Assembly: GCF_001570365.1 (NCBI RefSeq)
Contig: NZ_BBYK01000056.1
Coordinates: forward strand, 1 to 64,000
Direction of reading: 5' to 3'
From: Microtetraspora fusca
Lineage (GTDB): Bacteria; Actinomycetota; Actinomycetes; Streptosporangiales; Streptosporangiaceae
Length of the DNA: 64,000 bases
Position numbers and translations under genes: made by a program. Below the pieces are notes generated by a model that ran no database searches, had not been told where the DNA came from, and saw only the letters and a list, made by a program, of their open reading frames with translations. This document shows positions 2,939-46,750 of this stretch, piece after piece. Every line of letters starts with the position of its first letter. Positions within the stretch are counted from its first letter, which is position 1.

Positions 2939-9307
<6,369 letters not shown>

Positions 9308-9318
<11 letters not shown>

Positions 9319-12300
9319 CACCGTACGATCGGCCGCACTCCGCCGCGAGCTGCTGGAACGGCGGCTCGCGGGGACGCGCGGCTTCGGCGCGGACCTGCCC
9401 AGGGCGGACCGGTCGCGCCCGATCCCGGTCTCGCCCGCCCAGCGCCGCCTCTGGTTCCTCGACCGTCTCGACCCCGGGAGCGCCGAATACGCCGTCCCCC
9501 TCGTCCTGCGGCTGCGCGGCGCGCTGGACCGCGACGCGCTGCGCCGCGCCTTGTCCGAGCTGGTCGCCCGGCACGAGGCGCTGCGCACGCGCTTCGCGCT
9601 GGGCGACGACGGCGAGCCGTACCAGGTGATCGACCCGCCCGCGCCCGCCGAGCTGCTCGTCGCCGAGCTCGGCGACGAGCCGCTCGACCGGGCGATCGCC
9701 CGCGAGGCGTGGCGCGGCTTCGACCTCGCCGGTGCGCCGCCCTGGCGGGCGCTGCTCCTCCGCGTGGCCCCCGACGAGCACGTGCTCGTGCTGACGCTGC
9801 ACCACATCGCCTGCGACGGCTGGTCGCTGGGCATCCTGAGCCGGGAGCTGACGGCGCTGTACGCGGGGTCCGCGCTGCCCGCCGCGCCGCGCCTGCAGTA
9901 CGCCGACGTCGCCGCCTGGCAGGCGGCGCGGCCGGTGGCGGGCCGTGACCTGGACCACTGGCGCGAGCGGCTCGCCGACCTGAGCCCGGTGGAACTGCCG
10001 ACGGACCGCCCGCGTCCGGCGCGCCGCCGTCCCGAGGGCGCGGTGACGGTGTTCTCGGTGCCCGTGAAGGTCGCCGCGGCCCTCGCGGCGGCGGGGCGGG
10101 CCCGGGGCGCGACGCCGTACATGACCCTGCTCGCGCTCTTCTGCCTGCTGCTCGCCCGGCACGCGGGACGCACCGACGTGGCGGTCGGCTCGCCCGTCGC
10201 CGGGCGGTCCCGCCCCGGGCTGGAGGGCGTCGTCGGCTTCTTCGTCAACATGCTGGTGCTGCGCGCCGACCTGCGCGGCGATCCCACCTTCCCCGAGCTG
10301 CTCGACCGCGTGCGCGAGACGGCGCTGGCCGCGTTCGCCCACCAGGACCTGCCGTACGAGCGGCTGGTCGACGAGCTGAGCCCCGACCGCGACCTGTCCC
10401 GCAACCCGATCTTCCAGCACGTGTTCGCCTACGAGGACGACGTGCCGGGGCCGACGGGCGTACCCGATCCCGCCTTCCCGACCGTTCCGCTGGGGGTCGC
10501 CGACCCGTCGAGGGGTTTGGAACCGTCGGGGGGCGCCGCCGGGCCCTTCAGCGGCGCCGAACCGCTGACGACGGTCCGGCCGCACGGGATGCCGGAGCCG
10601 TGGGCGGAGACGGTGCCGGTGGCGCCGGTCACGGCCAAGTTCGACCTGCAGTTCACGCTGCGGCGGCAGGCGGACGGCTCCCTGGTGGGCGTCGCCGAAT
10701 ACGCCACCGCGCTGTTCGACGCCGCGACCGTGGATACGCTGGCGGCCCGTTTCGTGCGCCTGGCCCGGGCGGTCGCCGCCGACCCCGGGGCCAGGCTGAG
10801 CGAGCTGCCCGTCCTCGACGACACCGAGCGCGCGACGCTGCTCGCCTGGAGCGGCGCCGCACCGGCCCTGCCCGGGGGGACGCCACCCCACACCGGCACA
10901 GCGGCGGCGCTCAGCGCCGATCCGGTGGCGCGAGAAAGCGACGTGGTTCCGCTCCAGCCCGATGGGGTGCGCGACCTGCTCGTCGGGGACGGGATCCCTC
11001 CCGGGGCCGCACCGGACGTGGTCGCCAGGTTCGAGGAGTGGGCGCGGATCGCGCCCGCGCGGGTCGCGCTCGTCGCGGGGGAGACGCGGCTCACCTACGG
11101 CGAGCTGGACGCCCGCGCCGACCGGCTCGCCCGCCGCCTGCGCGCCGAGGGGGCCGGCCCCGAGAGCCGCGTCGGCGTCTGCCTGGGCCGGGGCGCCGAT
11201 CTGGTCGTCGCGCTCCTCGCCGTGGCCAAGTCCGGCGGCGCCTACGTGCCGCTCGACCCCGCCTATCCACGGGAGCGGCTGCGGTTCATCGCCGCCGACG
11301 CCGGCATCCTGCTGACGGTCACCGAACGGCGCCATGCCGCCCTGGTGCCCGGCCGCCGAATCCTGCTCGACGCCCCCACCGCCGACACCCCGGCGGGCAC
11401 CGATGATCGCGTGCCCGGTGCGGAGGCGCCGGGGCTCAGTCCGGAGCGGGCGGCGTACGTGATCTACACCTCGGGGTCGACCGGACGGCCCAAGGCCGTG
11501 CTGGTCACCCACGCCAACCTGGCCCGGCTGTTCACCGCCGACAGGGAGCGGTTCGGATTCGGGCCGGACGACGTGTGGACGCTGTTCCACTCCTTCGCCT
11601 TCGACTTCTCGGTGTGGGAGCTGTGGGGCGCGCTCGTCCACGGTGGACGGCTGGTCGTGGTCCCCTCCGAGGTCGCCAGGGAGCCGGAGGAGTTCGCCGC
11701 CCTGCTGGCGGCCGAGGGCGTGACCGTGCTCAACCAGACGCCGTCCGCGTTCGCCGCGCTCGCGCCCGTCGTCTCGGACGTGTCCCGCCTCCGACTGGTG
11801 ATCTTCGGCGGCGAGCGCCTCGACGCCGCCACGCTGCCGACCTGGCCGGGCGTCGAGATGATCAACATGTACGGGATCACCGAGACGACCGTCCACGTCA
11901 CCCTCGCCTCCGTCACCAACCGGATGACGGGCAGCCCGATCGGCCGGCCGCTGGCGGATCTCCGCGCGTACGTGCTGGACGCCTTCGGCGACCTCGCGCC
12001 TCCCGGGGTCACCGGCGAGCTGTACGTGGGCGGGGCGGGCGTGACCCGCGGCTACCTCGGACGGCCGGGCCCGACCGCCGAGCGGTTCGTCCCCGACCCG
12101 TACGGCCCGGCGGGCGGCCGGCTGTACCGCACCGGCGACCTCGCCCACTGGACGGCCTCCGGCGAGCTGGAGTTCCTCGGCCGGGCCGACCAGCAGGTGA
12201 AGATCCGCGGCCACCGGATCGAGCCGGGCGAGGTCCGGGCCGCGCTGCTCGCCCACCCGTCGGTGTCCGACGCGGCGGTGGTGGCCCGCGAGGACGCGCC

Positions 12301-15300
12301 CGGCGCGCGGCGGCTGGTCGCCTACGCGGTGCCCGCGGACGTCTCTCCCGCCGCGCTCCGCGACCACCTCCGCCGGACGCTGCCGCCGTACATGGTGCCC
12401 TCGGCGGTCGTCCCGCTGGACGCGCTGCCGCGCACCGCCACGGGGAAGCTCGACGTGGCGGCGCTCCCCGCGCCGGACGGGGCGCGCGAGCGGGGTTTCG
12501 TCGCCCCCGCGACGCCCGGCGAGCGGCGGATGGCCCTGGTGTGGCGGTCGGTGCTGCGGCGCGAGGCGGTCGGAGCGCACGACGACTTCTTCGATCTTGG
12601 CGGCGACTCGTTGCGGGCCGTCGCGCTGGTGGGCGCCCTGCGGGAGGAGGGCTTCGACGTCGCGGTCCGCGACGTGTTCGAGCACCGGACCGTCGCCGCG
12701 CTGTGCGCGCACGCGGAGGGCCGCCCCGCGCCCGCGCCGCACGCGTCCGTCGCGCCGTTCGCGCTGCTCGACCCGGCCGACCGCGAGCGGCTCCCGGACG
12801 GGGTGGCCGACGCCTACCCGCTGACCCGCATGCAGGCCGGCATGGTCTACGAGATGCTCGCCGACCCCGACGTGCGGAACTACCACAACGTCACGAGCTT
12901 CAGCATCAGGGACGACGCGCCCTTCTCGGAGTCCGCGCTCCGCGCGGCGGCCGCGATCGTGGTGGCGCGGCATGAGGTGCTGCGCTCGTCGATCGACCTC
13001 ACCGGCTACTCCGAGCCGCTCCAGCTCGTCCACGCGGAGGCGGAGATGAGCGTCGGCGGCGCCGACCTGCGCGGCGATCCCGACCAGGCCGCGCGGATCG
13101 CCGGCTTCCTCGCCGCCGAGCGGGCCACGCCGTTCGACCTGTCCGCCCCGCCTCTGCTGCGGGTGTTCGCCCACCGGGTCGCCGACCACACCTGGCGCCT
13201 GTCGATGACCGAGTGCCACGCGATCCTGGAGGGCTGGAGCTACCACTCGCTGCTGATGGAGCTGCTGGCCTGCTACCGCGCGATCCGCGACGGGCTCCCG
13301 GTGCCCGAGTACGAGGTCCCGCCCGTCCGCTACGCCGACCTCGTGGCCGCCGAACGCGAGACGATGGCCGACCCCGCCTCCCGGGCGTACTGGAGCCGGG
13401 CGGTCGAGGATCACGCCAAGCTGGAGCTCCCGGCACCCTGGGCCGACCCCGAGGGCGGGCGCGAGCCGTACCAGATCGGCGTCCCGCTGTTCGAGCTGTA
13501 CGAGGGGCTGAGCGCGCTGGCCTCGGCGGCGGGCACGCCGCTGAAGAGCGTGCTGCTCGCCGCCCACCTGAAGGTCCTCTCCCAGCTCACCCACGAGGCC
13601 GCGTTCCACACCGGGCTGGTCTGCGACACCCGCCCCGAGGCGGCAGGGGCCGACCGGGTCTACGGCATGTTCATCAACACCGTGCCCTTCCCGTTCCGGG
13701 TCACCGCCCCGACCTGGCGCGAGCTGGTGCGGGACGCCTTCGCCGCCGAGGTCGGCATGTGGCCGCACCGGCGCTTCCCGCTGCCCGCCGTCCAGCGCGA
13801 GCTGGCCGGAGGGCGGCAGCTCGTCGACGTGTATTTCAACTACCTGGACTTCACCGTCGTCGACACCGAGCTGGTGGACCTGCCGGAGAGCATCGACGTC
13901 AGCCCGAACGAGTTCCCGCTGTCGGTGACCGTCCTCGGCGGCATGCTCACGCTCACCTCCCGCCCCGAGGTGCTGCGCCGCGCCGACGCGGAGCGGCTCG
14001 CCGGCATGTACCGGGCCGTCCTGGCCTCGATGGCGGCCGACCCCGGCGGCGACGCCCTCGCGTCCTACCTGCCGGGCGACGAGCGGCGGCTGGTGCTCAC
14101 CGAGGTGAACGACACCGCGCTGCCCCGGCCGGGCATCAGCGCGTCCGCCGTCATCGAGGAGTCGGCGCGGCTGCTGCCCGACGCGGTCGCGGTGACCGCC
14201 TGGGACGGTTCCCGGCTGACCTTCGCCGAGCTGGACGGCCGGGCCAACCAGGTCGCCTGGCTGCTGCGCGACCTCGGCGCGGGGCCGGAGACCGTGGTGG
14301 GCGTCTGCCTCGACCGCGGCCTCGACCTGCTGCCCGTGCTGCTCGGCGTGTGGCGGGCGGGCGCGGCCTACACCCCGCTCGAACCCGCCCACCCGGCCGA
14401 GCGGTGGGGCGCCGTGCTCGCCGACTCCGGCGCGCGGATCGTCGTCGCGGAGGCCGCCTACGCCGACGAGCTCGGCGAGGTTTACGGCGGCGCCGTCGTC
14501 ACGGCCGGGGAATGGGACGGCCGGCCCACGCGCCGGCCACCGATCCACGAGGCCGACGGTCTCGGCGGTCTCGCGTACGTGATCTACACGTCCGGCTCCA
14601 CCGGACGGCCGAAGGGCGTCCTGATCGACCACCGGGGCCTGGCGAACTACCTCTGGTGGACGGTCGAGAAGTACGCCGCCCACGGCTGCGGCGGGGCGCC
14701 GCTGTTCTCCTCGATCGCGTTCGACATGGTGGTGCCCGATCTCTTCACCCCGCTGATGATCGGACAGCGCGTCCACATCCTGCCGCCCGACCTCGACCCG
14801 GGCGACCTCGGCCGCCTGCTCGCCGAGGCCGCGCCGTACAGCTTCGTGAAGCTCACCCCCGGCCATGTCGAGCTGCTCGCCCATCAGCTCGACCCCGACC
14901 AGGCCGCCGGGCTCGCCGAACTGCTCGCGATCGGCGCCGACGCCTTCCCGACCGGCGTCCTGGACCGGTGGGCGGCGATGGCGGGCGACACCCGGCTGCT
15001 CAACGAGTACGGCCCGACCGAGATCTCGGTGGCCAACAGCACCTTCGACATCGACGGTCCGGTCGACGGCGACCTGGTGCCGATCGGCCGTCCGATCCCC
15101 AACACCACGATGTACGTCCTCGACCGGAACCTCGAACCGGTGGCCGTCGGCGTCATCGGGGAGATCTACATCGGCGGCGACGGAGTGGCGCGGGGCTACA
15201 ACGGCATGCCCGCCCGCACGGCGGAGCGCTTCGTCCCCGACCCGTACGGTCCGCCCGGCGCCCGCCTCTACCGGACCGGCGACCTGGGGCGGTTCCGGCC

Positions 15301-18300
15301 CGGCGGCGACGTCGACTTCCTCGGCCGTACGGACGACCAGATCAAGATCCGGGCGTACCGGATCGAACCCGGCGAGATCCAGGCCGTGCTCAACGCCCAT
15401 CCGGACGTCCACGAGACGCTGGTGCTCGCGAAGGGCGACCGCCTGGTGGCGTACTGGGTGCCCTCCCGGACGCCCGGAGCGGAGCCGGGCCCCGAGGGGG
15501 CGACGGCGGCCGGGGGCGCGGAGCCCGTGCGGCGAGCCTGGAGCGCCACGGATGCGGAGGCGGGGCCGGGGCCCGACCTGGCCGGCTGGTGCCGCGACCG
15601 TCTCCCCGACTACCTCGTGCCCGCCCATTTCATCCGGATCGCCGCGATACCGCTCAACGCCAACGGCAAGGTGGACAGGAAGGCGCTGCCGGAGCCGGAG
15701 GAGACCGGCGAGCGGGTCCGCGTCGCGCCCCGCACCGACGTCGAGCGGCGGATCGCCGCGATCTGGGCCGAGACGCTGGGCGTGGAACCCGGCGTGACCG
15801 ACGACTTCTTCCGTCTCGGCGGCCACTCGATCCTGGTGGTCCGGATGACCACCCGGCTCCGGGAGGAGTTCGGCGTCGCACTGCCGGTCCGCGCCGTCTT
15901 CGACCGCCCCACCATCGAAGGCATCGCGCGGCTCGTCGCCCCCGGACCGGACGACGGAACGGTCGGCGAGGCGGACGGCGTGGCGGACGGCGGGGCCGCC
16001 CCGGTGGCGGCGCCCGAGCCGATCCCGCCCGTGGAGCGCACCGGCCCGCTGCCGTTGTCACCCGCCCAGCGGCGGCTGTGGCTGCTGGACCGGCTCAGCC
16101 CGGCGAGCCCCGAATACCTCGTGCCGATGGCGGTCCGCCTGCGCGGCCCGCTCCGTCCCGAGCGGGTACGGCAGGCGTGGGACGGCATCGCGGCCAGGCA
16201 CGAGATCCTGCGGACCCGCTACGTCGTCGTGGACGGCGAGCCGCGCCAGATCGTCGATCCGCCCGGTCCGGTCCCGTTCGAGACGGCCGACGTCGGCGCG
16301 GGCGGCGAGGCGGAGGCGTGGCGGCGCGCTCTCGACGCGGCGCGGCGGCCGTTCGACCTGGCCGGGCAGTGGCCGGTGCGGGTGCAGGTGCTCCGGATTG
16401 CGCAGGACGATCACCTCCTGGTCGCGGTGCTCCACCACATCGCCTGCGACGGCTGGTCCACCCGGCTGCTGAGCGAGGAGTTCGCCGCCCGCTACGCGAC
16501 CGATGCCGAGCCCGCCGCGCCGCGCCTGCAGTACGCGGACTACGCGGCGTGGCAGGGGGACCGGTCCGTCGGCGGCTCGCTCGCGTACTGGCGCGACCGG
16601 CTCGCCGGGCTGGGCCCGCTCCCGCTGCCCGCGGACCGGCCCCGCCCGAAGGCGCGCGACTGGGCGGGGGACACCGTGACCTTCGCCGTGCCGGACGCCA
16701 CCGCGCGGGCCCTGCGCGACCTGGCCCGGCGGGAGGGCGCCACCCTCTTCGCCACGCTGCTCACCGCGTTCCAGATGCTCCTGGCCCGCCAGACCGGGTC
16801 CCGCGACATCGCGGTCGGCACCCCGGTGGCCGGACGCGACCACCCCGACCTGGCGGGCATGGTCGGCTGCACGGTCAACACGCTCGTGATCCGCGCCGAC
16901 CTGACGGGCGATCCGGCGTACACCGACCTGCTCGCCGCCACCCGGCGGACCGTGATGGACGCGCTCCAGCACCAGGACGTGGCCTTCGAGACGCTCGTGG
17001 AGGAGCTGTCCCCGGAGCGCGACCTGTCCAGGAACCCGCTGTTCGACGTGATGTTCACCGTCGAGCACGGCGACACGCGCGGGGTGTGGCAGGGCGGGGC
17101 GGACGCCGCGCCCGTCGTGCTCGACGCGGCCGTGGCGAAGTTCGACCTCACCCTTCACCTGGACGAGAACGCGGACGACGGCTCGCTCACCGGGCTGTTC
17201 GAGTACGCCACCTCGCTCTTCGACCGGACCACGATCGAGCGGCTGAGCGGTCGGTTCCTCCGGCTCCTCGATGACATCGCCGCCGACCCGTGTGCCCGGC
17301 TGTCCGGCCTCGGCCCGCACGTCGCGCCGGTCCCCGTACGTGAGGTCGAGGCGGGGGTGTGGCGGTCGGCTCCGGATTTGGTGGCGGCGCGTGCGGTGGC
17401 GGTCCCGGATGCGGTGGCGGTGGTTTCCGGTGGTGGGGCGCTGTCGTTCGGGGAGCTGGATCGGCGGGCTCGTGGGGTGGCGGGCCGGTTGCGGCGGCTG
17501 GGCGTCGGTCCGGAGTCTCTGGTGGGGGTGTGCCTGGAGCGTGGGGTGGATCTGCTTCCGGTGTTGGTGGGGGTGTGGTACGCGGGGGCGGCGTATTTGC
17601 CGGTGGAGCCGTCGTGGCCGCCGGCCCGGCGGCGGGCTCTGCTCGCAGACGCCGGCGCCCGCGTCCTGATCGCCGCCGAGGGGGCGGGCGAGTGGGGGCC
17701 GGGGGTCGTGGTGGTCACTCCGGAGGAGTGCCCGTCGTGGCGTCCGGAAGACGCGCCGGACAGTGCGGCTGGGGCGGTCCCGGTCGCATCGGGCGGGCTG
17801 GCCGACGGGGCCGAGGCGGTGCCGGTCGCGGTCGATCCGGATTCGCTGGCGTACGTGATCTACACGTCGGGCTCGACCGGACGGCCCAAGGGGGTCGAGG
17901 TCAGCCACCGCTCGCTGGTCGCCTATCTCCTGGACGCCGCCGCGCGGTACGACGCGGCCGGAGGCTCGGTGCTGCTCTCCTCGGTCGCGTTCGACATGGC
18001 GGTCACCGCGCTCTTCGCGCCCCTCGTGGCCGGAGGCTCGGTCCGCGTGCTGCCCCCGGACGTGGATCCCGCCACGCTCGGCCGGTCGCTGGCCGAGTCC
18101 GGGCCGTACGGCTTCGTGAAGATGACGCCCGGTCACATGGAGGCGGTGCTCTCGTCCGGCCCGGTGCCCGGGACCGCCCACCTGGTCGTCGGCGGGGAGG
18201 TGCTCGCGCCGTCGCTGGTCGAGCGGTGGCGCAAGGTCGTTCCCGGCTCCGTCGTGGTCAACGAGTACGGCCCGACCGAGGCGACGGTGGCGTGCTCGAC

Positions 18301-19197
18301 GTTCGCCGTGCCCGAGGGGGCGGACGGCGTGCGGGCGCCCATCGGCCGCGCGATGCCGGGCGCCTCTGTACGCGTCTTCGACCCGTGGCTGGACCTGTGC
18401 CCGGTCGGCGTGCCCGGCGAGATCATGATCGGTGGGGTCGGGGTGGCGCGGGGCTATCGCGGCCGTCCGGCTTTGACGGCTGAGCGGTTCGTCCCTGATC
18501 CGTACGGGCCGGCGGGGTCGCGGATGTACCGGTCGGGTGATGTGGGCCGGGTGCTGGAGTCGGGAGACGTGGATCTGCTCGGCCGGGTGGACGAGCAGGT
18601 GAAGATCCGGGGCTACCGGGTGGAGCCGGGCGAGGTCGCGGCCGTGCTGGCGGAGCATCCCGGGGTGTCGGACGCGGTGGTGATCGCCGTCGACGGCCGC
18701 CTGGTCGGCTACGTGGTCCCGGCCGCGCCGACTTCCGGGGAAGCCGAGGTGCTGGCGTGGCTGCGTGAGCGGCTGCCGGCGTACATGGTGCCGTGGCGGC
18801 TGGTCGAGATCGCGGCGGTGCCGTTGACCGCCAACGGCAAGCTCGACCGGACCGCCCTGCCCGCCCCGGAGCACGCCTCGCCCGACGCGATCGACCGGGA
18901 GCCGCGCGGCCCCGCCGAGCGGCTGCTGTGCGAAATCTGGGCCGAGCTGCTCCGCGTGGACCGGGTCGGCCCGCACGACGACTTCTTCCAGCTGGGCGGC
19001 CACTCCATCCTCGCGGTGCGGCTGCTCTCCCGGATCCAGGAGATCTTCGAGGTGGAACTGGCGTTCCGGACGCTCTTCGAGCAGCCCACGGTCGCCCGGC
19101 TCGCCCTGGTGATCGAGGCGGAGATCCGCGCCCAGGTTGCGCTGCTCACAGACGCGGAGGTCGCGGCCGACGCGCGGACTCAGGAAGGCAGACGGTC

Positions 19198-19201
<4 letters not shown>
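9308..19201 (+). CDS. NRPS, C-A(Thr)-PCP-C(modAA-like)-A-PCP-C-A-PCP
   Basis: A 3297-residue trimodular synthetase whose start overlaps the upstream gene by 11 bases. C1 about 38-508 (HHIACDG); A1 about 572-1053 with code D-F-W-N-I-G-M-V-H-K, the Thr code; PCP1 about 1091 with LGGDSL. The next C domain (about 1167-1597) opens [15 protein letters not shown] and has CHAILEG at 1303, replacing HHxxxDG. It belongs by eye to the modified-amino-acid (modAA) C-domain group linked to Ser/Thr dehydration. A2 (YTSGSTG about 1760; code about D-M-P-K-A-G-E-V-A-K) and A3 (about 2852; D-M-T-K-V-G-E-V-A-K) resemble Asn codes such as DLTKLGEVGK. PCP2 is near 2165, C3 about 2248-2675 (HHIACDG), PCP3 near 3224. 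The A3 DNA is partly near-identical to that of the last A domain of the cluster. Confidence 0.95.
17359..18850 (+). repeat. Duplicated adenylation-domain DNA, copy 1
   Basis: Long stretches of this A domain are nearly base-for-base identical to 27170-28790: the front (17359-17640), the block before and through the P-loop (17700-17895), the A5 region (18237-18345) and the back (18418-18720). The middle, about 17900-18235, which shapes the substrate pocket, differs. Codons in the shared front are richer in T at the third position than surrounding NRPS DNA. This is the pattern of duplication or gene conversion with an independently evolving pocket. Confidence 0.85.
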
Positions 19202-22388
<3,187 letters not shown>

Positions 22389-22392
<4 letters not shown>

Positions 22393-25300
22393 CGGCGAAC
22401 GACACCGAGGCCCTGCGCGAGGACCTGATCCGGCGAAGGCTCGCCGGGGCGCGGCGCAAGCGGCAGGGCATCCCGCCGGCCGACAGGTCGGCGCCCCTCC
22501 CGCTGTCGTTCGGGCAGCGGCGGCTGTGGCTGCTCCACCGGCTCGACCCCGCCAGCCCCGAGTACCTGGTGCCGATGGCGCTGCGGCTGCGCGGGCCGCT
22601 GGACGCGACCGCCGTCTGGCGGGCGTGGGACGCCATGGTGATCAGGCACGAGATCCTGCGCACCCGCTACGTCGTCGTGGACGGCGAGCCCGCGCAGGTG
22701 GTGGACGAGCCGCGCGCGTTCCCGGTGCGGGAGGCGGACCTGACCGGTCTTCCCGCCGACGAGCGGCTGCCCGCGGCGCTCGAGGTGTTCGAGCGTGAGG
22801 CGCGGACGCCGATCTCGCTGGAACACGAGTGGCCGGTGCGGGCGTGGCTGGGCAGGCTGGACGACGAGGACCACGTCATGTTCGCCGTCTACCACCACAT
22901 CGCCGTCGACGGCTGGTCGCAGGGCGTCATCAACACCGAATGGCCCGCCCTGTATCTCGCGTACGCCCTCGGGCACGAGAACCCGCTCGCGGACCTGCCC
23001 CCGCTCCCCGTCCAGTACGCCGACTACGCCTCCTGGCAGCGGAGCCGGATCTCGGGCCCGCTGCTCGACCGGGAGCTGGAGTTCTGGCACGGGCGGCTGA
23101 GCGGTGTGCCCCACCTGGAGCTGCCCACCGACCGGCCGCGCCCCGCCGTACGCGACTGGTCCGGAGGCAAGGTCGAGTTCCGCGTGCCGCCGGAGCTGGC
23201 CGAACGGCTGCGCCGGATCGGCCGCGAACGGCAGGCGACGCTGTTCATGGTGCTGCTCACCGCGTTCCAGGTGCTGCTGTCGCGGTACTCGGGGCAGCGG
23301 GACATCGCGGTCGGCACCCCGGTGGCCGGACGTACCATGCCGGAAATCTCCGGAATGATCGGCTTCACGGTCAACACCCTGGTCATCCGGGGACGCTGGC
23401 ACGACGACCCGCTCTTCACCGAACTGCTCGACGCGACCCGCCTCACCGTGCTCGACGCGCTGGACCACCAGGAGCTGCCCTTCGAACGGCTGGTGGACGA
23501 CCTCCAGCCCGAGCGGGACATGTCCCGCAACCCGCTGTTCCAGGTGATGTTCGGCCTGCACAACGAGGAGACGAGCGAGGGGGAGTACGGGACGCTCAAG
23601 GCCGAGACCCTGCTCACCAGCGGGTCGGTGGCCAAGTTCGACCTCAACCTCCAGTTCGAGGAGACCGCCGCGGGCGGGCTGTTCGGCGTGCTCGACTACG
23701 CCTCCGCGCTCTTCGACGCGGACACCGTGAGCCGGATGGCGGACCACCTCCGGCGGCTGCTGGAGAACATCGCGGCCGACCCCGAACGCCCCGTCTCCGC
23801 GCTGCGCCTGCTCGCGCCGCACGAGCTCCCGGACCTCGAGGCGCCGGCCGCGCCGGGCGATCCCGAGGACGTGGCCGGCTCGGAGGGGTGTGGCTCTCCT
23901 GGTGACCCGGTCTCCCTGGTGGTCGATCTCGTCGAAGAGCGGGCACGGGTCACTCCGGACGCGATCGCCCTGACCGTCGGCGGCGCGTCGACCACGTACG
24001 CCGAGCTGGACGAGCGGGCCGACCGGCTCGCGTGGCGGCTGCGCTCGCTGGGCGTCGGGCCGGAGTCGCTCGTGGCGGTCTGCCTGCCGCGCGGCGCCCT
24101 GCTGGTGCCCGCGCTCCTCGCCGTGTGGAAGGCGGGCGGCGCGTACGTCCCCCTCGATCCGGGCCACCCTCCGGCCCGGCTCCGGCAGACGCTCGCCGAC
24201 TGCGGCGCCGAGGTGGTGGTGACCGACTCCGGCCTCGCGGACGCGTTCGACGGCGCGCGGCTGCTCCTCCTCGACGAGCCCGCCCCACATGCCGCTGCTG
24301 TGGGAGACGAGGACGGCTCCGGGGCGGACCGGCCGCCGGGGCCGCCGGAGCGGACCGCCGACCCGGACGGGCTCGCCTACGTCATCTACACGTCGGGTTC
24401 GACCGGCCGTCCGAAGGGCGTGATGGTCACCCACGGCAACCTCGCCCGGCTTCTGGCCGCCACGCGGGACGGCTTCCGCTTCGGACCGGACGACGTCTGG
24501 ACGCTCTTCCACTCGGCCGCGTTCGACTTCTCCGTCTGGGAGATGTGGGGGGCGCTCTCGACCGGCGGGCGGCTGGTGGTCGTGCCGTACACCGTCTCGC
24601 GCTCGCCCGAGGAGTTCCTCGACCTGCTCGTCGCCGAGCGGGTGACCGTGCTCAACCAGACGCCGTCCGCGTTCGCCGGGCTGGCCGCGGCGGTCTCCGC
24701 CGACGACGGACGGCGGGCCGCGCTGCGCCTGCGCCTCGTCGTCTTCGGCGGCGAGCGCCTCGACGCCGCCGCGCTGCCGTCGTGGCCTGGCGTCGAGATG
24801 GTGAACATGTACGGCATCACCGAGACGACCGTCCACGTCACCCGGCACCCGGCCGACCCGGCCGAGCGCGGGGCGGGCAGCCGCGTCGGCCGCGCCCTGG
24901 ACGGCGTGAGCGCCCGCGTCGTGGACTGCTACGGGGACCTCGCGGCGCCCGGCGCGGCGGGCGAGATCCACGTCGGCGGTTCCGGAGTCGCCCGCGGTTA
25001 CCTCGGGCGGCCGGGACTGACCGCCGAGCGGTTCCTCCCCGACCCGTACGGACCGCCGGGTTCGCGTCGTTACCGGACCGGCGACCGCGCCCGCCTCCGC
25101 GGCGACGGCGGCCTCGAATTCCTCGGCAGGGTGGACGACCAGATCGCTTTGCGCGGCTACCGGATCGAGCCGGGCGAGGTCGAAGCCGTCGTCACGGCGC
25201 ATCCGGCGGTCCGCGAGGCCGCCGTGGTGGTGCGGGACGGGCGGCTGGTCGCCTACGTGACCTACCGGACCGCCGAGAGAACCGCTGGAGCGGATCCCGC

Positions 25301-28300
25301 GGCCGGCTCGGCCGACACGAGGGAGGGCGGCGCGCTCGCGGCCGAGCTCCGTGGGCACTGCGCGTCCCTGCTGCCGTCCCACATGGTGCCCGCGCTCTTC
25401 GTGGGCATGGAGCGGCTGCCGCTCACGCCGAACGGCAAGACGGACCGGCGGGCCCTGCCCGAGATCGATCCCGGCGATCCGGCGGCCGGGTCCGGGGCGG
25501 CGACCCCGCCGGAGACCCAGGCCGAGGCGCGCATGCTCGGCCTCTGGACCCGCGTCCTCGGCCGCTCGTCGATCGGGACCGGCGAGGACTTCTTCGAGCT
25601 CGGCGGCGACTCCCTGCGCGCGGTCGCCCTCGTCGGCGACCTGCGCGCCGCCGGGTTCGACGTGTCCGTACGCGACCTCTTCGAGCGGCGGACCGTGGCC
25701 GGCCTCGCCCGCCTGGCCGACGAACGCCCCACGGCGGGGGAGCACACGGCCGTCGCCCCCTTCGCCCTGCTCGGACCGGACGACCTCGCCCTGATCCCCG
25801 CCGACGCCGTCGACGCGTACCCGCTCTCCCAGGTGCAGGCGGGCATGGTGTACCAGTCGCTCGCCCACCCCGAGGCGCGCTACTACCACGACGTCTTCAG
25901 CTTCGGCGTCCGGGACGAGGCGCCCTTCTCCGCCGAGGCGCTGCGGGCCGCCGTCGCGCGGGCGGTGGAGCGGCACGAGAACCTGCGCACGTCCATCGAC
26001 CTCTCCACGTTCTCGACGCCCATGCAGGTCGTCCACGCCGCCGCCGACCCGCGGCTCGTCGTGCGGGACGTACGGCACCTGCCCGCCGGCGAGCGCGCCG
26101 AGGACGCGGCCCGGTGGCTGGCGCGGGAGTGGGAGACGCCCGTGGAGCTGGAGCGCGCCCCGCTCCTGCGGCTGTTCGCCCAGGTGGAGGAGGACGGCCA
26201 CTGGCGGCTCGGGATGACCCTCCACCACGCGATCGTCGAAGGATGGAGCCAGCACACGCTCCTGATGGAGTTGCTGGACGACTACCGGTCGCTCAGGGAC
26301 GGCCGGGAACCGCCCGAGCGTCCCCTCCCCGCCGTCCGGTACGCCGACTTCGTCGCGGCCGAAGTGGCCGCCCTCGCGTCCCCGGACGACGAGGGCTACT
26401 GGGAGAGGCAGCTCACCACCCACGCGCGCTGGGCCGTACCGGCCGACTGGGCGGACGCGACGGCGGGCGACGAGGTCGATCAGGTACGGGTCGATCTTCT
26501 CGATGCGTACGAGGGGCTGGCCCGGCTCGCCTCCTCGGCGGGTGTGCCGCTCAAGAGCGTGCTGCTCGCGGCGCACCTCAAGGTGCTCAGCGCGTTCACC
26601 CCGGACACCGCCTTCCACACCGGCCTGGTGTGCGACGCCCGCCCCGAGGCGGCGGGAGCCGACCGCGTCCACGGCATGTTCCTCAACATCGTGCCGTTCC
26701 CGTTCCGGCTCGACGCCCCGACCTGGCGGGACCTCGTACGGGATGTGTTCGCGCGCGAGGTGGACCTGTGGCCGCACCGCCGCTTCCCGTTCCCCGAGAT
26801 GCAGCGGCGCTGGGCCGGCGGGGCGGAGCTGCTCCCGATCTTCTTCAACTACCTCGACTTCCACGTCATCGACACCGACGTCGTGGATCTGCCGGAGAGC
26901 ACGGGGGAGACCCCCAACGAGTTCGCGCTTCAGGTGACGACGCTCAACGGGACGCTCACCCTCACCGCCCGCCGCCGGGACGTCGGCCCGGCCGCCGCGG
27001 CCCGGCTGGCCGAGATGTACCGACGTGTCCTCACCGCCATGGCGGAGGACCCGGAAGGAGACGCGCTCGCCGCCTACCTCCCTGCCGACGACGCCGTGGA
27101 GGGTGGCGTGGAAGGCGCCTCTGAGGCGGTGTCGGCGGTGGCCTTACGGGACGGCGGCGTGGTCGGGGAGTGGCGGTCGGCTCCGGATTTGGTGGCGGCG
27201 CGTGCGGTGGCGGTCCCGGATGCGGTGGCGGTGGTTTCCGGTGGTGGGGCGCTGTCGTTCGGGGAGTTGGATCGGCGGGCTCGTGGGGTGGCGGGCCGGT
27301 TGCGGCGGCTGGGCGTCGGTCCGGAGTCCCTGGTGGGGGTGTGCCTGGAGCGTGGGGTGGATCTGCTTCCGGTGTTGGTGGGGGTGTGGTACGCGGGGGC
27401 GGCGTATTTGCCGGTGGAGCCGTCGTGGCCGCCGGCCCGGCGGTGGGCTCTGCTGGCGGACGCGGGCGCCCGCGTCCTGATCGCCGCCGATCGGGAGCCT
27501 CATGCAGGTGGAGCCGTCCAGGAAGCCGAAGGGGCGCCGGAGGTCGTGGTGGTCACTCCGGAGGAGTGCCTGTCGTGGCGTCCGGAAGACGCGCCGGACA
27601 GTGCGGCTGGGGCGGTCCCGGTCGCATCGGGCGGGCTGGCCGACGGGGCCGAGGCGGTGCCGGTCGCGGTCGATCCGGATTCGCTGGCGTACGTGATCTA
27701 CACGTCGGGCTCGACCGGACGGCCCAAGGGCGTCGAGATCACGCATCGGAATCTGGCCTCGTACCTGCGCCACTGCGAGGGGAGGGGCGGCGCGCCGCTG
27801 TTCTCGTCGGTCGCGTTCGACATGGCGGTGACCACGCTCTTCGCGCCTCTTGTGGCAGGGGAGCCGGTCCACCTGCTGCCGCCGGACCTGGACGTGGCGG
27901 ACCTCGGGCCCGCGCTGGCCGAGTCCGGGCCGTACGACTTCGTGAAGCTGACTCCGTCCCACCTGGAGGCGCTCTGCCAGACCGTGCCGCCGGGCGGCGC
28001 GGCGGGGCTGGCGCGGGCCTGGCTCGTCGGCGGGGAGGCGCTCGCGCCCTCGCTGGTCGAGCGGTGGCGCAAGGTCGCGCCCGACTCCGTCGTGGTCAAC
28101 GAGTACGGCCCGACCGAGGCGACGGTGGCGTGCTCGACGTTCGCCGTGCCCGAGGGGGCGGACGGCGCGCGGGCGCCCATCGGCCGCGCGATGCCCGGAG
28201 CCTCCCTGCGGGTGCTCGACCGCTGGTACGAGCCGCGGCCCACCGGTGTGCCGGGCGAGATCATGATCGGTGGCGTCGGGGTGGCGCGGGGCTATCGCGG

Positions 28301-29873
28301 CCGTCCGGCTTTGACCGCCGAGCGGTTCGTCCCCGATCCGTACGGTCCGCCGGGGTCGCGGATGTACCGGTCGGGTGATGTGGGCCGGGTGCTGGAGTCG
28401 GGTGACCTCGATCTGCTCGGCCGGGTGGACGAGCAGGTGAAGATCCGGGGCTACCGGGTGGAGCCGGGCGAGGTCGCGGCCGTGCTGGCGGAGCATCCCG
28501 GGGTGTCGGACGCGGTGGTGATCGCCGTTGACGGCCGTCTGGTCGGCTACGTGGTCCCGGCCCCGGAACCGCCGGTCGTCTTCGAGGGCGCCGCGCCTGC
28601 TCTGTCCGACGTATCGGCACCGCCTTCTTCGCCCGGATCGGCAGGGGCGGCCGGGCGGCGCGGTCCGGGAGAGGCGGAGGCGCTGGCGTGGCTGCGTGAG
28701 CGGCTGCCGGTGTACATGGTGCCGTGGCGGCTGGTGGAGATCGCGGCGGTGCCGTTGACGGCCAACGGCAAGCTGGACAGGGCCGCCCTGCCGGAACCCT
28801 CGGGGGCTGGTAGCGCGGCGCGCGACCCGCTTCCCGCCGCCACGCCGACGGAGGCGGCGATCGCCGAGGTCTGGCAGGAGGTTCTCGAACTCTCCCCGGT
28901 CGGCGTCGAGGACGACTTCTTCGAGCTGGGCGGGCACTCGCTGCTGACCCTCCGCGCCGTGGCGCTGGCGAACCGGCGCGGGCTCCCCGTCCGGGCCCAC
29001 GACATCCTGGAACTGCGCACGGTGCGCGCGCTCGCGCGCCGGGTCGACGGAGCCGAGGCCGCCCGGCCGCTCGTCTGGCTGAACCGGCGGCCGACGCCGC
29101 CGCGCGTGGGAGCCCGCGAGCAGTCGGCGCCGCTCTTCGTCGTCCATCCGGCGGGCGGCGCGTCGCACTGGTACCGTCCGCTCGCCGAGCGCCTGTCGCG
29201 CCCCGTCGCGTCGTTCGTCGTGCCCGGCCTCGACGACGCCGCCGACGTCGTACGGCTGGCCGCCCACTACGTGGGGCAGATCCGGGCGGCGGAGACTCCG
29301 CCGTACCGCCTGCTCGCCTGGTCGTCGGGGAGCACGATCGCCTGGGAGATAGCCGCCCAGCTCATCGCGGCGGGCGGCCCGGCTCCGGAGCTGATCCTCG
29401 TCGATCCCATGGCCGACATCCCGGGCAGCGCCGTGGGGGCCGAGACCTTCGACCTGCTGGAGACCCTGCTGCGGGAGCCCGGACGGACCCGGCTCGCGCG
29501 CGGTGTCACGGCCTACCGGGCCAGGAAGCTGCTCGCCGAGCTCGGCATCACCGCCACCAGGGACGACTTCGAGGCGCTCGACGCCCAGATAGAGCTGTGG
29601 CGGACCCTCGACCAGGCGACCGCGGAATACCGCTTCCCGCCGCTGCCGATCCCGCTGCGGCTCGTCGTGAGCGACGACTGCGTGAGCGGGCGGCACACGG
29701 TGACCGGACGCCGGCCCTACGCCGAGTACCTGGACCGATGGCGCGCGCTCGCGGGCGGCGGGCTGACCCTCCACCGCCTCGGCTGCGACCACCGCGGCGT
29801 TTTCAACCCTCCCTACGTCGACCTTCTCGTTCGCATCGCCGGTGAGGTGACCCCCAATGAAGCCAGGACGTGA
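22389..29873 (+). CDS. Terminal NRPS, C-A(Thr)-PCP-C(modAA-like)-A-PCP-TE
   Basis: 2494 residues from the ATG at 22389 (ATGA overlap with the upstream stop). C1 about 36-465 (HHIAVDG); A1 ([11 protein letters not shown] about 667) code D-F-W-N-V-G-M-V-H-K, Thr; PCP1 about 1067 (LGGDSL). The second C domain (about 1143-1570) opens [15 protein letters not shown] and has HHAIVEG at 1279, with Glu for the usual Asp, and is of the modAA-like type. A2 (about 1600-2135) code D-M-T-K-L-G-E-V-A-K, Asn-like. PCP2 about 2175 (LGGHSLL). The final thioesterase domain, about 2248-2494, has nucleophile motif A-W-S-S-G near 2308, Asp in LILVDP and His in GCDHRG. It releases the finished peptide, by hydrolysis or cyclisation. 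The Thr/modAA half repeats the architecture of the 9308 gene. Confidence 0.95.
27170..28790 (+). repeat. Duplicated adenylation-domain DNA, copy 2
   Basis: Partner of 17359-18850. Shared blocks here are about 27170-27485, 27541-27730, 28093-28200 and 28255-28560. Short insertions (for example about 27487-27540 and about 28565-28670) lie in linkers. Both copies encode Asn-like pocket codes. Confidence 0.85.
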
Positions 29874-30801
29874 CCGTACCCGCCATCTGATCTCTCTCTC
29901 CGACCTCTCCGACGAGGACCTCGAAGCGCTGGTCGAACGCGGCTGCGCCATCGCCGCGGGCGCCCCGATCGAGGGCATCCTGCGCGGACGCGTCGTCGGC
30001 GTCTACTTCACGAAGACCTCGACCCGTACGCGTACCGCGTTCTCCAGCGCCGCCATCCGCCTCGGCGCGGGCGTGATCGCGTACGGTCCGGACGACCTGC
30101 AGCTCAACACCGGAGAGACCCTGCAGGACACCGGCCGGGTGCTGTCCAGGATGCTGGACGTCCTGGTCGTCCGGACCGCCGGGCCGCCCGAGGAGATGGC
30201 GGCGCTGGCCGCGCAGCGGCGGATGGCGACGATCAACGCCATGAGCGCGGACGAGCACCCCACCCAGGCCCTGGCCGACCTGACCACCATGCAGCTCCGG
30301 TTCGGCTCGCTCTCCGGGCTGCGCGTCCTGTACGTCGGGGAGGGCAACAACACCGCCGCCGCTCTCGCGCTCGCCCTCACCCGGTTCCCGCGCGCGGAGC
30401 TGCACCTGCGCACACCCCCCGGGTACGGCCTCGCGCCCGGCATCGCGCTCAGGGCCAAGGAGTACGTCGCGGCGAGCGGCGCCCACCTCACCGAACGGCA
30501 CGACATGGGGGACCTCCCGGGCGAGGTGGACGTCGTCTACACCACCCGCTGGCAGACGACGGGCACGTCCAAGCCCGACCCCGACTGGCGTTCCGTCTTC
30601 GCACCCTTCCACGTGAACCGGGAGCTGATGGCGCGCTATCCGATGGCCCTGTTCATGCACGACCTGCCCGCCCACCGGGGCGAGGAGGTGAGCGCGGAGG
30701 TGCTGGACGGCCCGCGCAGCATCGTGTTCGAGCAGGCGGAGAACAAGATGCACAGCGCGGCCGCCGTACTGGAGTGGGCCGCGGGCGGTGGGCGGTGGTG
30801 A
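29857..30801 (+). CDS. Aspartate/ornithine carbamoyltransferase-family enzyme of the NRPS cluster
   Basis: 314 residues; the ATG lies 17 bases inside the 3' end of the terminal NRPS gene, so the two are translationally coupled. The carbamoyl-phosphate motifs are intact: STRTR at about residues 51-55 and HPTQ at about 129. The amino-substrate side is changed from ornithine carbamoyltransferase: HCLP is HDLPAHRG, and the SMG loop is replaced by TTRWQTTG. It therefore probably carbamoylates another amine. The family includes VioL/CmnL-type enzymes of tuberactinomycin pathways, which act on diaminopropionate-derived residues. No arginine-biosynthesis genes are nearby. Likely substrate (inference): a free building block or a side-chain or terminal amine of the NRPS product. 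Confidence 0.85.
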   Translation: MKPGRDRTRHLISLSDLSDEDLEALVERGCAIAAGAPIEGILRGRVVGVYFTKTSTRTRTAFSSAAIRLGAGVIAYGPDDLQLNTGETLQDTGRVLSRMLDVLVVRTAGPPEEMAALAAQRRMATINAMSADEHPTQALADLTTMQLRFGSLSGLRVLYVGEGNNTAAALALALTRFPRAELHLRTPPGYGLAPGIALRAKEYVAASGAHLTERHDMGDLPGEVDVVYTTRWQTTGTSKPDPDWRSVFAPFHVNRELMARYPMALFMHDLPAHRGEEVSAEVLDGPRSIVFEQAENKMHSAAAVLEWAAGGGRW

Positions 30802-31922
30802 CCCGGATCTCGGCGGAGCGGCTGCTCGCCGACATCGCGTCCCTCGCCGCGTTCGGCGGCCGGGCGGACGGCGGGGTGGACCGGGTCGCGGGGTCGGCGG
30901 CGGACCTGGCGGCCCGCGACTGGCTGGCCGGGCGCATCGCCGAGGCGGGGTGCGTCGCCTGGCGCGACGACATCGGCAACGTCTTCGGCCGGACGCCCGG
31001 CGGCTCCGGCCCGTGGCTGCTCGCCGGCTCCCACACCGACAGTGTCCCCGGAGGCGGCCGGCTCGACGGAGCGTACGGCGTGCTGTCCGCGCTCGAGGTC
31101 CTCCGTACGCTGCGGGAGGCGGGGCACCCCGCCGCGGAGACGCTGGAGATCGTGAGCTTCTGGGACGAGGAGGGCGCGGCCCCCACCTCCGGCGGCGGGC
31201 TGGTCGGCTCCACCGCGTTCTGCTCCGGCGGCCACCTCGCCGAGATCACCGCGTTCCTGGAACTCCACATCGAGCAGGGGCCGCGGATGGAGCGCGCCGC
31301 GCTCGACCTGGCGGTGGTCGAGGGCATCGTCGGCATCGACCGGTACGCCGTCACGCTCACCGGCGAGACCAACCACGCGGGGACGACGCCCATGGACGGC
31401 CGCGCCGACGCCGGCCGGGCCGCCGCCCGGGTGCTCGTCGAGGTCAGGGAGATCGCCGCGGCGGCCGACCCGGGCATGGTGGCGAACGTCGGCTGCGTGG
31501 AGGTGCTCCCCGGAGCCCCGAACGTGATCCCCGGCGCGGCGCGGCTGGTCGTCGAGTTACGCGCGGCCGGCCGCGCCGCGCTGGACGCGTGCGCGGAACG
31601 GCTGCGCGCCCACGCGGCGCGCGTCGCGCGGGAGGAGGGGTGCGTCGCCGTCGTCGAGGTCCTCTCGCGCAAGCCGGAGGCGCGGTTCGACCCCGCCCTG
31701 TGCGACCACCTGGAGAAGGTCTGCAAACGCCTCGGCGTGACACACGACCGCCTGGTGAGCTACGCCGGGCACGACGCGGGCGTGCTCAGCCGCCACGTGC
31801 CGACGGCCATGCTGTTCGTGCCCAGCAGCTCCGGGGTCAGCCACGCGCCCGCCGAGCACACCCCCGACAGACAGCTCGTACTGGGCTGCCAGGCCCTCCT
31901 CGACGCCGTGGTCGCGTGGTGA
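30798..31922 (+). CDS. M20-family Zn amidase (N-carbamoyl-amino-acid hydrolase / allantoate amidohydrolase type)
   Basis: The preferred start is GTG at 30798, which overlaps the previous stop as GTGA; an in-frame ATG at 30774 would add 8 residues. From GTG the protein has 374 residues. Metal-ligand motifs are present in order: GSHTDSVPGGGRLDG, SFWDEEG, LELHIEQGP and GVSHAPAEHT, together with the dimerisation-domain motif TNHAGTTPM. Members hydrolyse N-carbamoyl-L-amino acids, ureidoglycolate/allantoate-type compounds or related amides. Coupling to a carbamoyltransferase suggests it removes, trims or recycles a carbamoylated intermediate or activates a prodrug (inference). It could also be an amidase acting on the peptide. 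Confidence 0.88.
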   Translation: MTRISAERLLADIASLAAFGGRADGGVDRVAGSAADLAARDWLAGRIAEAGCVAWRDDIGNVFGRTPGGSGPWLLAGSHTDSVPGGGRLDGAYGVLSALEVLRTLREAGHPAAETLEIVSFWDEEGAAPTSGGGLVGSTAFCSGGHLAEITAFLELHIEQGPRMERAALDLAVVEGIVGIDRYAVTLTGETNHAGTTPMDGRADAGRAAARVLVEVREIAAAADPGMVANVGCVEVLPGAPNVIPGAARLVVELRAAGRAALDACAERLRAHAARVAREEGCVAVVEVLSRKPEARFDPALCDHLEKVCKRLGVTHDRLVSYAGHDAGVLSRHVPTAMLFVPSSSGVSHAPAEHTPDRQLVLGCQALLDAVVAW

Positions 31923-32024
31923 CCCGGAGGGCGAGATGGCGAGAACACGCCACGATCATTGCCCCCACGATCAGCCGCAAATACCCTCAATCCGTGTCTT
32001 TCCCCAGGTGAGAGGGGTAACGCC

Positions 32025-32870
32025 GTGACGATGGCTGTGCGGGTACGCGGGCTGCGCAAGCGGTACGGCGACGTCGCCGCAGTAGACGGCATCGACCTCG
32101 ACATCGCCGCGGGCGAGGTGTTCGGCCTGCTCGGCCCGAACGGCGCGGGGAAGTCGACCACGGTCGAGATCCTGGAGGGGCACCGGCGGCGCGACGAGGG
32201 TGAGGTCAGCGTCCTCGGCACCGATCCGCATCGGGCCGCGCGCTCCTGGCGCGACCGGATCGGCATCGTCTGGCAGACCGCCGCCGACACCCCGGAGCTG
32301 ACCGTCGCTGAGACCGTCCGGCATTTCTCCATGTACTACCGCAACCCGCGCGACCCCGAGCAGGTGATCGACCAGGTCGGCCTGACAGAGAAGGCCGGGA
32401 CCCGGATCCGCGCCCTCTCGGGCGGCCAGCGGCGCCGCCTAGACGTGGCGCTCGGCATCATCGGGAGCCCGGAGCTGCTGTTCCTCGACGAGCCGACCAC
32501 CGGCTTCGACCCGGAGGCGCGGCGGCGCTTCTGGGATCTCATCCAGGGACTCGCGGGCGAGGGTACGACGATCCTGCTCACCAGCCACTACCTGGAGGAG
32601 GTCGAGGCCCTCGCGGACCGGCTGGCGGTGATCTCGCGGGGCCGGATCGTCGCGGAGGGCGAGCCGCGCACGCTGGGCGGGCGCGCGGTCGCGGCCACCT
32701 CGGTCCAGTGGATGAGCGCGGACGGCCCGCGCACGGTCGAGACCGACACCCCCACCCGCGTCGTCCTCGACCTGGCCCGCGAGTTCGACGGCGAGGTGCC
32801 CCAGCTCACGGTGACGCGGCCCACCCTCGAAGACGTCTACCTCAAGCTGATCGGAGCCACCGATGAGTGA
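32025..32870 (+). CDS. ABC transporter ATP-binding protein, drug-export (DrrA-like)
   Basis: GTG at 32025 is chosen because gaggggt sits 6 bases upstream; an ATG at 32031 is the alternative, and the longer open frame from 31959 lacks support. 281 residues with Walker A (GPNGAGKST), Q-loop (WQTAADTPEL), signature (LSGGQRRRLDVALG), Walker B (LLFLDEPTTG) and H-loop (TSHYLEEV). The C-terminal part fits the DrrA/CcmA subfamily that energises antibiotic export. It overlaps the permease gene. About 100 bases separate it from the M20 gene, so it may have its own promoter. Probable job: export of, and self-resistance to, the NRPS product. Confidence 0.93.
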   Translation: MTMAVRVRGLRKRYGDVAAVDGIDLDIAAGEVFGLLGPNGAGKSTTVEILEGHRRRDEGEVSVLGTDPHRAARSWRDRIGIVWQTAADTPELTVAETVRHFSMYYRNPRDPEQVIDQVGLTEKAGTRIRALSGGQRRRLDVALGIIGSPELLFLDEPTTGFDPEARRRFWDLIQGLAGEGTTILLTSHYLEEVEALADRLAVISRGRIVAEGEPRTLGGRAVAATSVQWMSADGPRTVETDTPTRVVLDLAREFDGEVPQLTVTRPTLEDVYLKLIGATDE

Positions 32871-33732
32871 CACGGCGCCCGCCACCGTCGGCGCCCCTGC
32901 GGCCGACGCGCCCCGGCCGGAGCCGCGGGCGCGGTCCCGAGGAGCGCTGCGCCTCGGGCTGGCACGCGCGGCGATCGAGCTGAAGATGTTCTTCCGCGAG
33001 CGGGACCAGCTCGTGTTCGTCTTCTCCTTTCCCGTGGTCATGCTGGTGATCCTCGCGTCGATCTTCTCCGTTCAGTACCACGGGACCCAGGTGACGGTCT
33101 CCCAGGTCTACGTGACCGGACTCATCGGCGCCGGCATCATGGCGGTGAGCTTCCAGAACCTCGGCATCACGATCGCGGTCGAACGCGACGAGGGGGCGTT
33201 GCGGCGGCTGACCGGCACGCCCATGCCGGGCGGCGCCTACTTCATCGGCAAGATCCTCAGCGTCCTGGTGATCGCCGCCGTCGAGGTCGCGGTCCTGCTG
33301 GTCGCCGGCGTCCTGTTCTACGACGTCGAGCTGCCCGCGTCGCCCGGGCCGTGGCTGACGTTCGCCTGGGTGTTCACGCTGGGACTGGCCGCGTCGGCGC
33401 TGCTCGGCATCGCCGCGAGCAGCGTGCCGCGTTCCGCCCGCGGCGCCACCGCGCTGATCACCATGCCGTTCGTGGTGCTGCAGTTCATCTCCGGCGTCTT
33501 CATCCCGTTCACCGACCTGCCGGAGTGGCTGCTGCGGCTGTCCGCCGTCTTCCCCCTCAAGTGGCTGTGCCAGGGCATGCGCTCGGTGTTCCTCGGGGAC
33601 AAGGGTGCGGTCCTGGAGGTCACGGGCGGCTACGAGCTGGGCCGGGTGGCGCTCGTCCTGGCCGCCTGGGTCGTCGGGGGCTTCGTCCTGTGCCTGCTGA
33701 CGTTCCGCTGGAAGAGCCGCCGGGACGGTTGA
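32863..33732 (+). CDS. ABC-2 type permease, partner of the upstream ATPase
   Basis: 289 residues, start overlapping the ATPase stop. After a Pro/Ala/Arg-rich cytoplasmic N-terminus there are about six hydrophobic segments, the first near residues 47-66 (VFVFSFPVVMLVILASIF), typical of ABC-2 drug exporters such as DrrB. The motif SGVFIPFTDLPEWLL before the last loop is family-typical. It forms a heterodimeric-type exporter with the ATPase in the cell membrane. It is the last gene of the + strand run that starts with the NRPS. Confidence 0.93.
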   Translation: MSDTAPATVGAPAADAPRPEPRARSRGALRLGLARAAIELKMFFRERDQLVFVFSFPVVMLVILASIFSVQYHGTQVTVSQVYVTGLIGAGIMAVSFQNLGITIAVERDEGALRRLTGTPMPGGAYFIGKILSVLVIAAVEVAVLLVAGVLFYDVELPASPGPWLTFAWVFTLGLAASALLGIAASSVPRSARGATALITMPFVVLQFISGVFIPFTDLPEWLLRLSAVFPLKWLCQGMRSVFLGDKGAVLEVTGGYELGRVALVLAAWVVGGFVLCLLTFRWKSRRDG

Positions 33733-35394: not shown

Positions 35395-35500
35395 ATCGAT
35401 GATGCCCTTCCAATCGTGTCGTTCGGTTCCAGGCACCCACCCTGCCTCAATGGCGGGTGCGGGTGGACCTCACCCTGACGGCATGGAGGAACCGGCTCCC

Positions 35501-36796: not shown

Positions 36797-36851
36797 GCTG
36801 ATGGCTCGATTCCGAAGTGCTGGAACTGTGGGGTGCTGGAACGCGAGTCGA

Positions 36852-46709: not shown

Positions 46710-46750
46710 CCTCGTAGGGAGACGCGGAGAGCGACTGAAGGCAAAACAAC

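Follow-up and report, generated by a model that had tools for sequence, protein, structure and literature searches.

The overlapping gene pair and its predicted enzymes

The window analysed here, the first 64,000 nucleotides of contig NZ_BBYK01000056.1 (C55) of Microtetraspora fusca, whose sequenced genome comprises 9,023,190 bases in 108 contigs, contains a pair of overlapping genes that code for a relative of ornithine carbamoyltransferase (OTC) and for an amidase of the M20 family. The two genes lie at the end of a series of nonribosomal peptide synthetase (NRPS) genes, the last of which is closed by a thioesterase (TE) domain that scored 71.9 bits against a Pfam cut-off of 26.4. An earlier note on this DNA had described the OTC start as overlapping the stop of this NRPS gene, and the M20 start as overlapping the OTC stop, an arrangement with which the coordinates in Table 1 agree; the GTGA overlap of the two genes arises from the later M20 start, the GTG codon listed there.

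Consistent with the earlier note, the OTC-like protein retains the carbamoyl-phosphate motifs STRTR and HPTQ and has lost the ornithine motifs DxxxSMG and HCLP, in whose place TRWQTTG and HDLP are found. When compared with the ornithine carbamoyltransferase model TIGR00658 it scored 247.4 bits, under the cut-off of 280.85, and because the genome contains two further OTCace_N genes, one of them bearing HCLP, the window enzyme is evidently an extra paralogue. All fifteen residues tabulated in the available part of PMC4581275 for the carbamoyltransferase of L-2,3-diaminopropionate (Dap), including R100, Q76, N159, T160 and K278, were present when mapped by motif and a constant offset, no Dap-enzyme sequence serving as reference. 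These residues, HDLP and, in the assignment of PMC4581275, TRWQTTG are likewise features of the Dap carbamoyltransferases (DPTCase) of viomycin, capreomycin and zwittermicin A described in the available parts of PMC4581275 and PMC6022934, and those enzymes share with the window an NRPS context and SbnA-type cluster genes. Judged by such non-ornithine signatures, the OTC is a member of the published class of carbamoyltransferases acting on Dap or on L-2,4-diaminobutyrate (Dab). Most likely, the enzyme would use carbamoyl phosphate to carbamoylate Dap at its beta-amine, so that beta-ureidoalanine (L-albizziine) is formed or a Dap residue within the peptide becomes carbamoylated.

When one genome was scanned per species, 163 OTC relatives emerged; the analysis covered the best 80 loci, and for 52 of these at least 10 kb was retrieved on both sides. 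Adenylation (A) or condensation (C) domains occurred in the retrieved stretch of 75 of these loci, the exceptions being L010, L049, L054, L056 and L063. The exact TRWQTTG loop was recorded in 74 and the pattern [TS]RW[QE]TTG in all 80, as were HDLP, STRTR and HPTQ, and RWQSMG was found in none of the 80. Ratios of nonsynonymous to synonymous substitution rates (dN/dS; Nei-Gojobori) for five pairs of OTC genes ranged from 0.25 to 0.38.

The substrate could instead be Dab, as in padanamide biosynthesis, or some other diamino acid, with the M20 enzyme acting on the corresponding product. Some OTC loci do contain an A domain with the code DIWEVTADD, which we take to be a Dab code, and the SbnA- and SbnB-like proteins of the Streptosporangiaceae clusters score under the Dap-family cut-offs; a 2,4-diaminobutyrate transaminase (TIGR00709) exceeded its cut-off only in the two Actinomadura genomes, away from the OTC contig. 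The Dab carbamoyltransferase of padanamide (DBTCase, PadQ type) has HDLP and most of the listed residues in common with the window OTC, and the available text of the two reviews differs on the remaining loop: PMC4581275, which supplies the residue table, assigns (T/S)RWQTTG to the Dap enzyme and TRWQSMG to the Dab enzyme, while calling the separating power of the motif unclear, whereas PMC6022934 reverses the two motifs, assigning S/TRWQTTG to the Dab enzyme. On balance a Dab substrate is considered improbable.

The second gene product was assigned to the carbamoylase type, as the note had surmised, by a score of 295.4 bits against the hydantoinase/carbamoylase model TIGR01879 (cut-off 204). 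Among ten aligned M20 proteins H87, D98, E132, H165 and H357 are invariant and E133 is present in nine, these being presumably the metal ligands, which the note had likewise described as kept, and the general base; H201, N250 and R263, presumably forming a carboxylate clamp, are also invariant in all ten. An AlphaFold model built with ten sequences (pLDDT 83.3, pTM 0.81) was matched by Foldseek, at ranks 1-38 in the PDB, to structures of hydantoinase/carbamoylase, allantoate amidohydrolase, ureidoglycolate hydrolase and beta-alanine synthase enzymes, with query TM-scores of 0.76-0.86 and identities of 27-36%. According to this model and the alignment, the M20 protein is a carbamoylase-type enzyme with an intact carbamoylase fold and intact carboxylate-binding residues. 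It shares the fold, the TIGR01879 family and the ligand and clamp residues with the L-carbamoylase 3n5f, the N-carbamoyl-beta-alanine amidohydrolase 8c46 and the allantoate amidohydrolase 1z2l, and differs from such amidases, to which it is only distantly related at the above identities, in its location in an NRPS operon together with an OTC. Given the retention of the carboxylate-binding residues, the enzyme would be expected to act most readily on the OTC product as free beta-ureidoalanine or in a C-terminal position.

Two other functions lost ground at this point. A function in purine catabolism found no support, given that the score against the allantoate amidohydrolase model AllC (TIGR03176), 216.4 bits, is far under the cut-off of 597.75 and that no purine-catabolism gene was present among the conserved cluster genes scanned. 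Activation of a prodrug at export is disfavoured because the M20 sequence, as read by eye, shows no export signal. Values of dN/dS for six pairs of M20 genes ranged from 0.19 to 0.51, the top value being that of the closest pair and dS being uncertain at high G+C.

Distribution of the pair and probable supply of diaminopropionate

Close M20 relatives were sought in overlapping samples of 200 genomes of the family (E <=1e-70), 297 of the order (1e-75) and 394 of the class (1e-75), which gave seven, eight and four matches respectively. Copies of at least 63% identity occurred in nine distinct genomes, and in all nine the M20 gene adjoins the OTC gene or lies one gene away, a result that bears out the pairing near NRPS genes for which the note had proposed a neighbourhood search. 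Six other Streptosporangiaceae clusters carry OTC and M20 in the same order as the window, which argues that the pairing is more than chance. The two genes are swapped in both Actinomadura clusters, where an NRPS gene with a TE domain is followed by M20, a LOG-family gene and OTC, so that two cluster architectures retain the pair. The LOG-family gene (L034:9261-10001; TIGR00730, 194.3 bits against a cut-off of 96.35) was unmatched in all other loci compared.

Viewed from the OTC side the association is rare, M20 being present in seven of the 80 OTC loci and unmatched in the retrieved stretch of the other 73. A gene that is tied to the OTC, while the OTC mostly occurs without it, fits an enzyme acting after the OTC. 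An OTC tree of 94 rows, nine of them with M20, required two changes of the M20 label, and the two M20-bearing groups were joined in 0% of 200 bootstrap trees, the backbone being unresolved; M20 appears to have joined the OTC either once or twice. The M20 enzyme is accordingly a rare yet recurrent partner, the OTC half of the pair being of an already known kind.

The same pattern might arise had the M20 enzyme drifted to another amide or ureido group of the pathway, its adjacency to the OTC reflecting no more than shared inheritance of a cluster module. The A-domain code DMPKAGEVA was found in all nine M20-bearing clusters; within the set of 80 OTC loci, it was read in none that lacked M20, so that M20 could follow that module rather than the OTC product; the OTC tree, being compatible with one or two joinings, also accommodates such inheritance. 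The intact metal ligands, clamp residues and carbamoylase fold argue to the contrary, and a drifted function is judged about as improbable as a Dab substrate.

Distribution also bears on whether the carbamoyl group serves as a temporary protecting or masking group on a diamino acid during nonribosomal assembly, with the M20 carbamoylase responsible for deprotection, a purpose that we regard as rather unlikely. In its specific form, marginally less likely again, the beta-amine of Dap would be capped by the OTC while the peptide is assembled, and M20 would take off the cap within the cell, from the bound or completed peptide, ahead of export. The presence of M20 beside the OTC in all nine genomes is in keeping with this, as is a segment between M20 residues 150 and 156 that is about 30 residues shorter than in 5tp4 and 4wjb and could admit a larger substrate. 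However, the kept clamp residues suit a small or C-terminal substrate, and the short segment, occurring as it does in a solitary, non-NRPS relative, that of G433, is neither peculiar to these clusters nor an adaptation to NRPS substrates.

As for the source of Dap, the best match to the SbnA family (TIGR03945) in each of the nine M20-bearing genomes is located either on the OTC contig (five genomes) or on a contig with genes of the same cluster type (four). The former comprise G095, G145, G106 and G130, in which SbnA and OTC are separated by about 52, 56, 57 and 74 kb, and Actinomadura violacea (G662), in which SbnA lies about 13 kb from M20 and scored 413.3 bits, over the cut-off of 349.95; the latter are G000, G044, G133 and A. 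harenae (G619). An SbnB-like gene adjoins SbnA in six of the seven Streptosporangiaceae. A separate sample of 13 SbnA loci, from 11 of 394 genomes (only G441a, G447 and G240 being extended further), included, in the stretches retrieved, nine with this OTC and nine with the A code DAxQxATxD, eight having both; G469, on a 6.5-kb contig, had the OTC only, G240 the code only, and G293, G441b and G448 neither within 40 kb. Among the 80 OTC loci, SbnA scored above 300 bits in 12 and DAxQxATxD was read in eight, the two coinciding in six.

This pattern makes DAxQxATxD a candidate code for Dap. The window has a single such module, at 4857, and DAWQFATID was read in eight of the nine M20-bearing clusters, the short A. 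harenae contigs being the case from which it was not obtained. Sequence searches of the PDB with two A domains gave no answer as to specificity. A proposed tie between the OTC and A domains of the DLPKVAEVG type was discarded. Of 38 plasmid records, the OTC is present in 21 of the 22 at or above a chosen cut of 58% identity and absent from all 16 below it, but most of them are near-copies, and the code occurs also in genomes where the family search gave no such OTC.

The A-domain codes are pertinent, too, to the suggestion that M20 is a beta-ureidopropionase feeding beta-alanine to a beta-amino-acid module, with the adjoining OTC serving another residue. A code beginning with VDW, which we take to be a mark of beta-alanine-like substrates, is present in the window and in six related clusters, and the M20 family does include N-carbamoyl-beta-alanine hydrolases (8c46). 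Against this, the A. violacea cluster keeps both M20 and OTC, but 100 kb of it yielded six A codes (DAFQFATID, DILQLGVIW, DAWQFATID, DIVQQGVVR, DFWNVGMVH and DMPKAGEVA) of which none is of the VDW type, by a motif (regular expression) reading that may miss some domains. With no beta-amino-acid module read in one cluster that has the pair, a beta-alanine supply is disfavoured and seems slightly more doubtful than a Dab substrate.

Cluster organisation and neighbouring genes

The contig begins inside the NRPS system, so that the genes preceding the OTC consist of an adenylation-thiolation (A-T) fragment, a stand-alone thioesterase and four NRPS open reading frames (Table 1). We take DVWHFSLVD to be a Ser code and DFWNIGMVH and DFWNVGMVH to be Thr codes. 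The C domains that follow both presumed Thr modules, in the reading frames at 9308-19201 and 22140-29873, have CHAILEGW and HHAIVEGW instead of the usual HHxxxDG, and are possibly residue-modifying condensation domains.

Table 1. Genes from the start of the window to the last one shared with related clusters; A codes are motif readings, by which A domains can be missed.
Feature	Coordinates	Strand	Remarks
NRPS A-T fragment, truncated at contig edge	2..2098	+	A code read VDWLISLDA, beta-amino-acid type
Stand-alone thioesterase	2174..2938	+	PF00975
NRPS reading frame	2317..9318	+	A codes DAWQFATID (candidate Dap code), DVWHFSLVD; real start probably internal
NRPS reading frame	9308..19201	+	A codes DFWNIGMVH, DMPKAGEVA, DMTKVGEVA
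NRPS reading frame	18793..22392	+	A code DHSNAGEVA; real start probably internal
NRPS reading frame	22140..29873	+	A codes DFWNVGMVH, DMTKLGEVA; terminal thioesterase domain ~29130-29870; real start probably internal
OTC-like N-carbamoyltransferase	29857..30801	+	314 aa, ATG start, Dap-enzyme residues
M20 hydantoinase/carbamoylase-family amidase	30774..31922	+	382 aa; GTG at 30798 a possible start
ABC transporter ATPase, DrrA-like	31959..32870	+	
ABC-2 type permease	32863..33732	+	orthologues in the six related clusters, the last such gene of the window

Comparison of the window genes with the six related clusters (G095, G145, G106, G130, G133 and G044; >45% identity, >60% coverage) matched the NRPS genes, OTC, M20 and permease in all six, whereas the ATPase was among the called genes of G106 and G145 but not of the other four; no called window gene beyond 33732 matched any of them. 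Upstream, G095, G145, G106 and G130 have further genes in common. Scanning of the G145 copies identified these as coding for an AfsR-type regulator, an alpha/beta hydrolase, an MFS exporter and a one-module polyketide synthase (KS, AT, KR, DH and carrier); a luciferase-like monooxygenase was called in three of the four. In the window genome the cluster is split, the regulator and SbnA-like gene being on contig C85 and the part from the NRPS genes to the ABC transporter on C55.

Beyond the permease, the minus strand carries three consecutive genes (33823-37508) that resemble resistance genes. They code for a rifampin-monooxygenase-like FAD enzyme, an erythromycin-esterase-like protein and a Vat/CatB-like acetyltransferase; each scored under its curated cut-off and was unmatched in the six related clusters. 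At 45486-47572 an SbnB-like gene (195.5 bits, cut-off 326.9; 40% identity to the cluster SbnB proteins) is followed by a LysE-type exporter, and at 57638-60507 a 404-residue protein without an NCBIfam match at 1e-20 precedes a fatty-acyl-AMP-ligase-like gene that matches (46%, 574 aa) a site upstream in the A. violacea cluster with M20 and OTC. The SbnB-like gene (45486-46709) and the ligase gene (58849-60507) were rejected as conserved cluster parts, neither having a match above 45% in the six related clusters; from its sequence the former could be a local stand-in for the SbnB not found beside SbnA on C85.

Proposed addition and removal of a carbamoyl group

The reading that we favour, with a probability of roughly 0.4, is that an OTC carbamoylating Dap is paired with an M20 carbamoylase that would undo its product, so that the first enzyme writes and the second erases the same carbamoyl group. 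Dap would be provided by the SbnA/SbnB-like enzymes of the cluster, and M20, as a cytosolic metal-dependent carbamoylase, would hydrolyse the ureido group, releasing CO2 and ammonia and restoring the amine. Since beta-ureidoalanine differs from N-carbamoyl-beta-alanine only in an additional alpha-amino group, the M20 family is chemically suited to reversing the OTC reaction. The pair would then govern the balance between ureido and free-amine building blocks and limit the build-up of a glutamine-like antimetabolite: L-albizziine is described in the available part of PMC6580962 as a competitive inhibitor of asparagine synthetase, and this provides a reason to control its pool.

Several observations weigh against this reading. 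M20 accompanies only seven of the 80 OTC loci, and a general safety valve should be commoner; moreover, the next-best M20 relative (52% identity), in G433, stands alone, with neither NRPS nor OTC genes within the 60 kb retrieved and with uninformative neighbours. Most of the fifteen diagnostic positions are common to the Dab enzyme, only the TTG/SMG loop differing, and on this the two reviews, in their available parts, disagree. With regard to the supply of Dap, an SbnB-like gene was not found beside SbnA in the window genome and was unmatched in 100 kb of the A. violacea cluster, and Streptosporangiaceae SbnA-like proteins scored 277.5 and 276.5 bits (cut-off 349.95) and the SbnB-like protein 205 (cut-off 326.9). 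Finally, the A codes come from motif readings, and in the literature searched the candidate Dap code did not appear.

The proposal in the earlier note that the pair installs and later removes a carbamoyl group is strengthened in so far as the OTC is of the Dap/Dab type and a carbamoylase-type M20 enzyme is tied to it; its first half is no novelty, since membership of the published carbamoyltransferase class means that NRPS-coupled carbamoylation is already known. The available parts of PMC4581275 and PMC6022934 mention no M20 carbamoylase with the viomycin, capreomycin and zwittermicin A enzymes, whereas the window has one, and no description of an OTC-M20 pair beside NRPS genes was found in the literature searched, outside which lie most primary papers on these antibiotics. 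On sequence evidence alone, self-protection, a protecting group and the production and trimming of a ureido building block look alike.

If the writer and eraser reading is correct, a known modification would gain a removal step: nonribosomal peptides could have their ureido groups managed and not merely installed, and the two enzymes would form a pair for the masking and unmasking of amines. The products of the related clusters in Planobispora, Planomonospora, Acrocarpospora and Actinomadura would reveal whether the ureido group survives.

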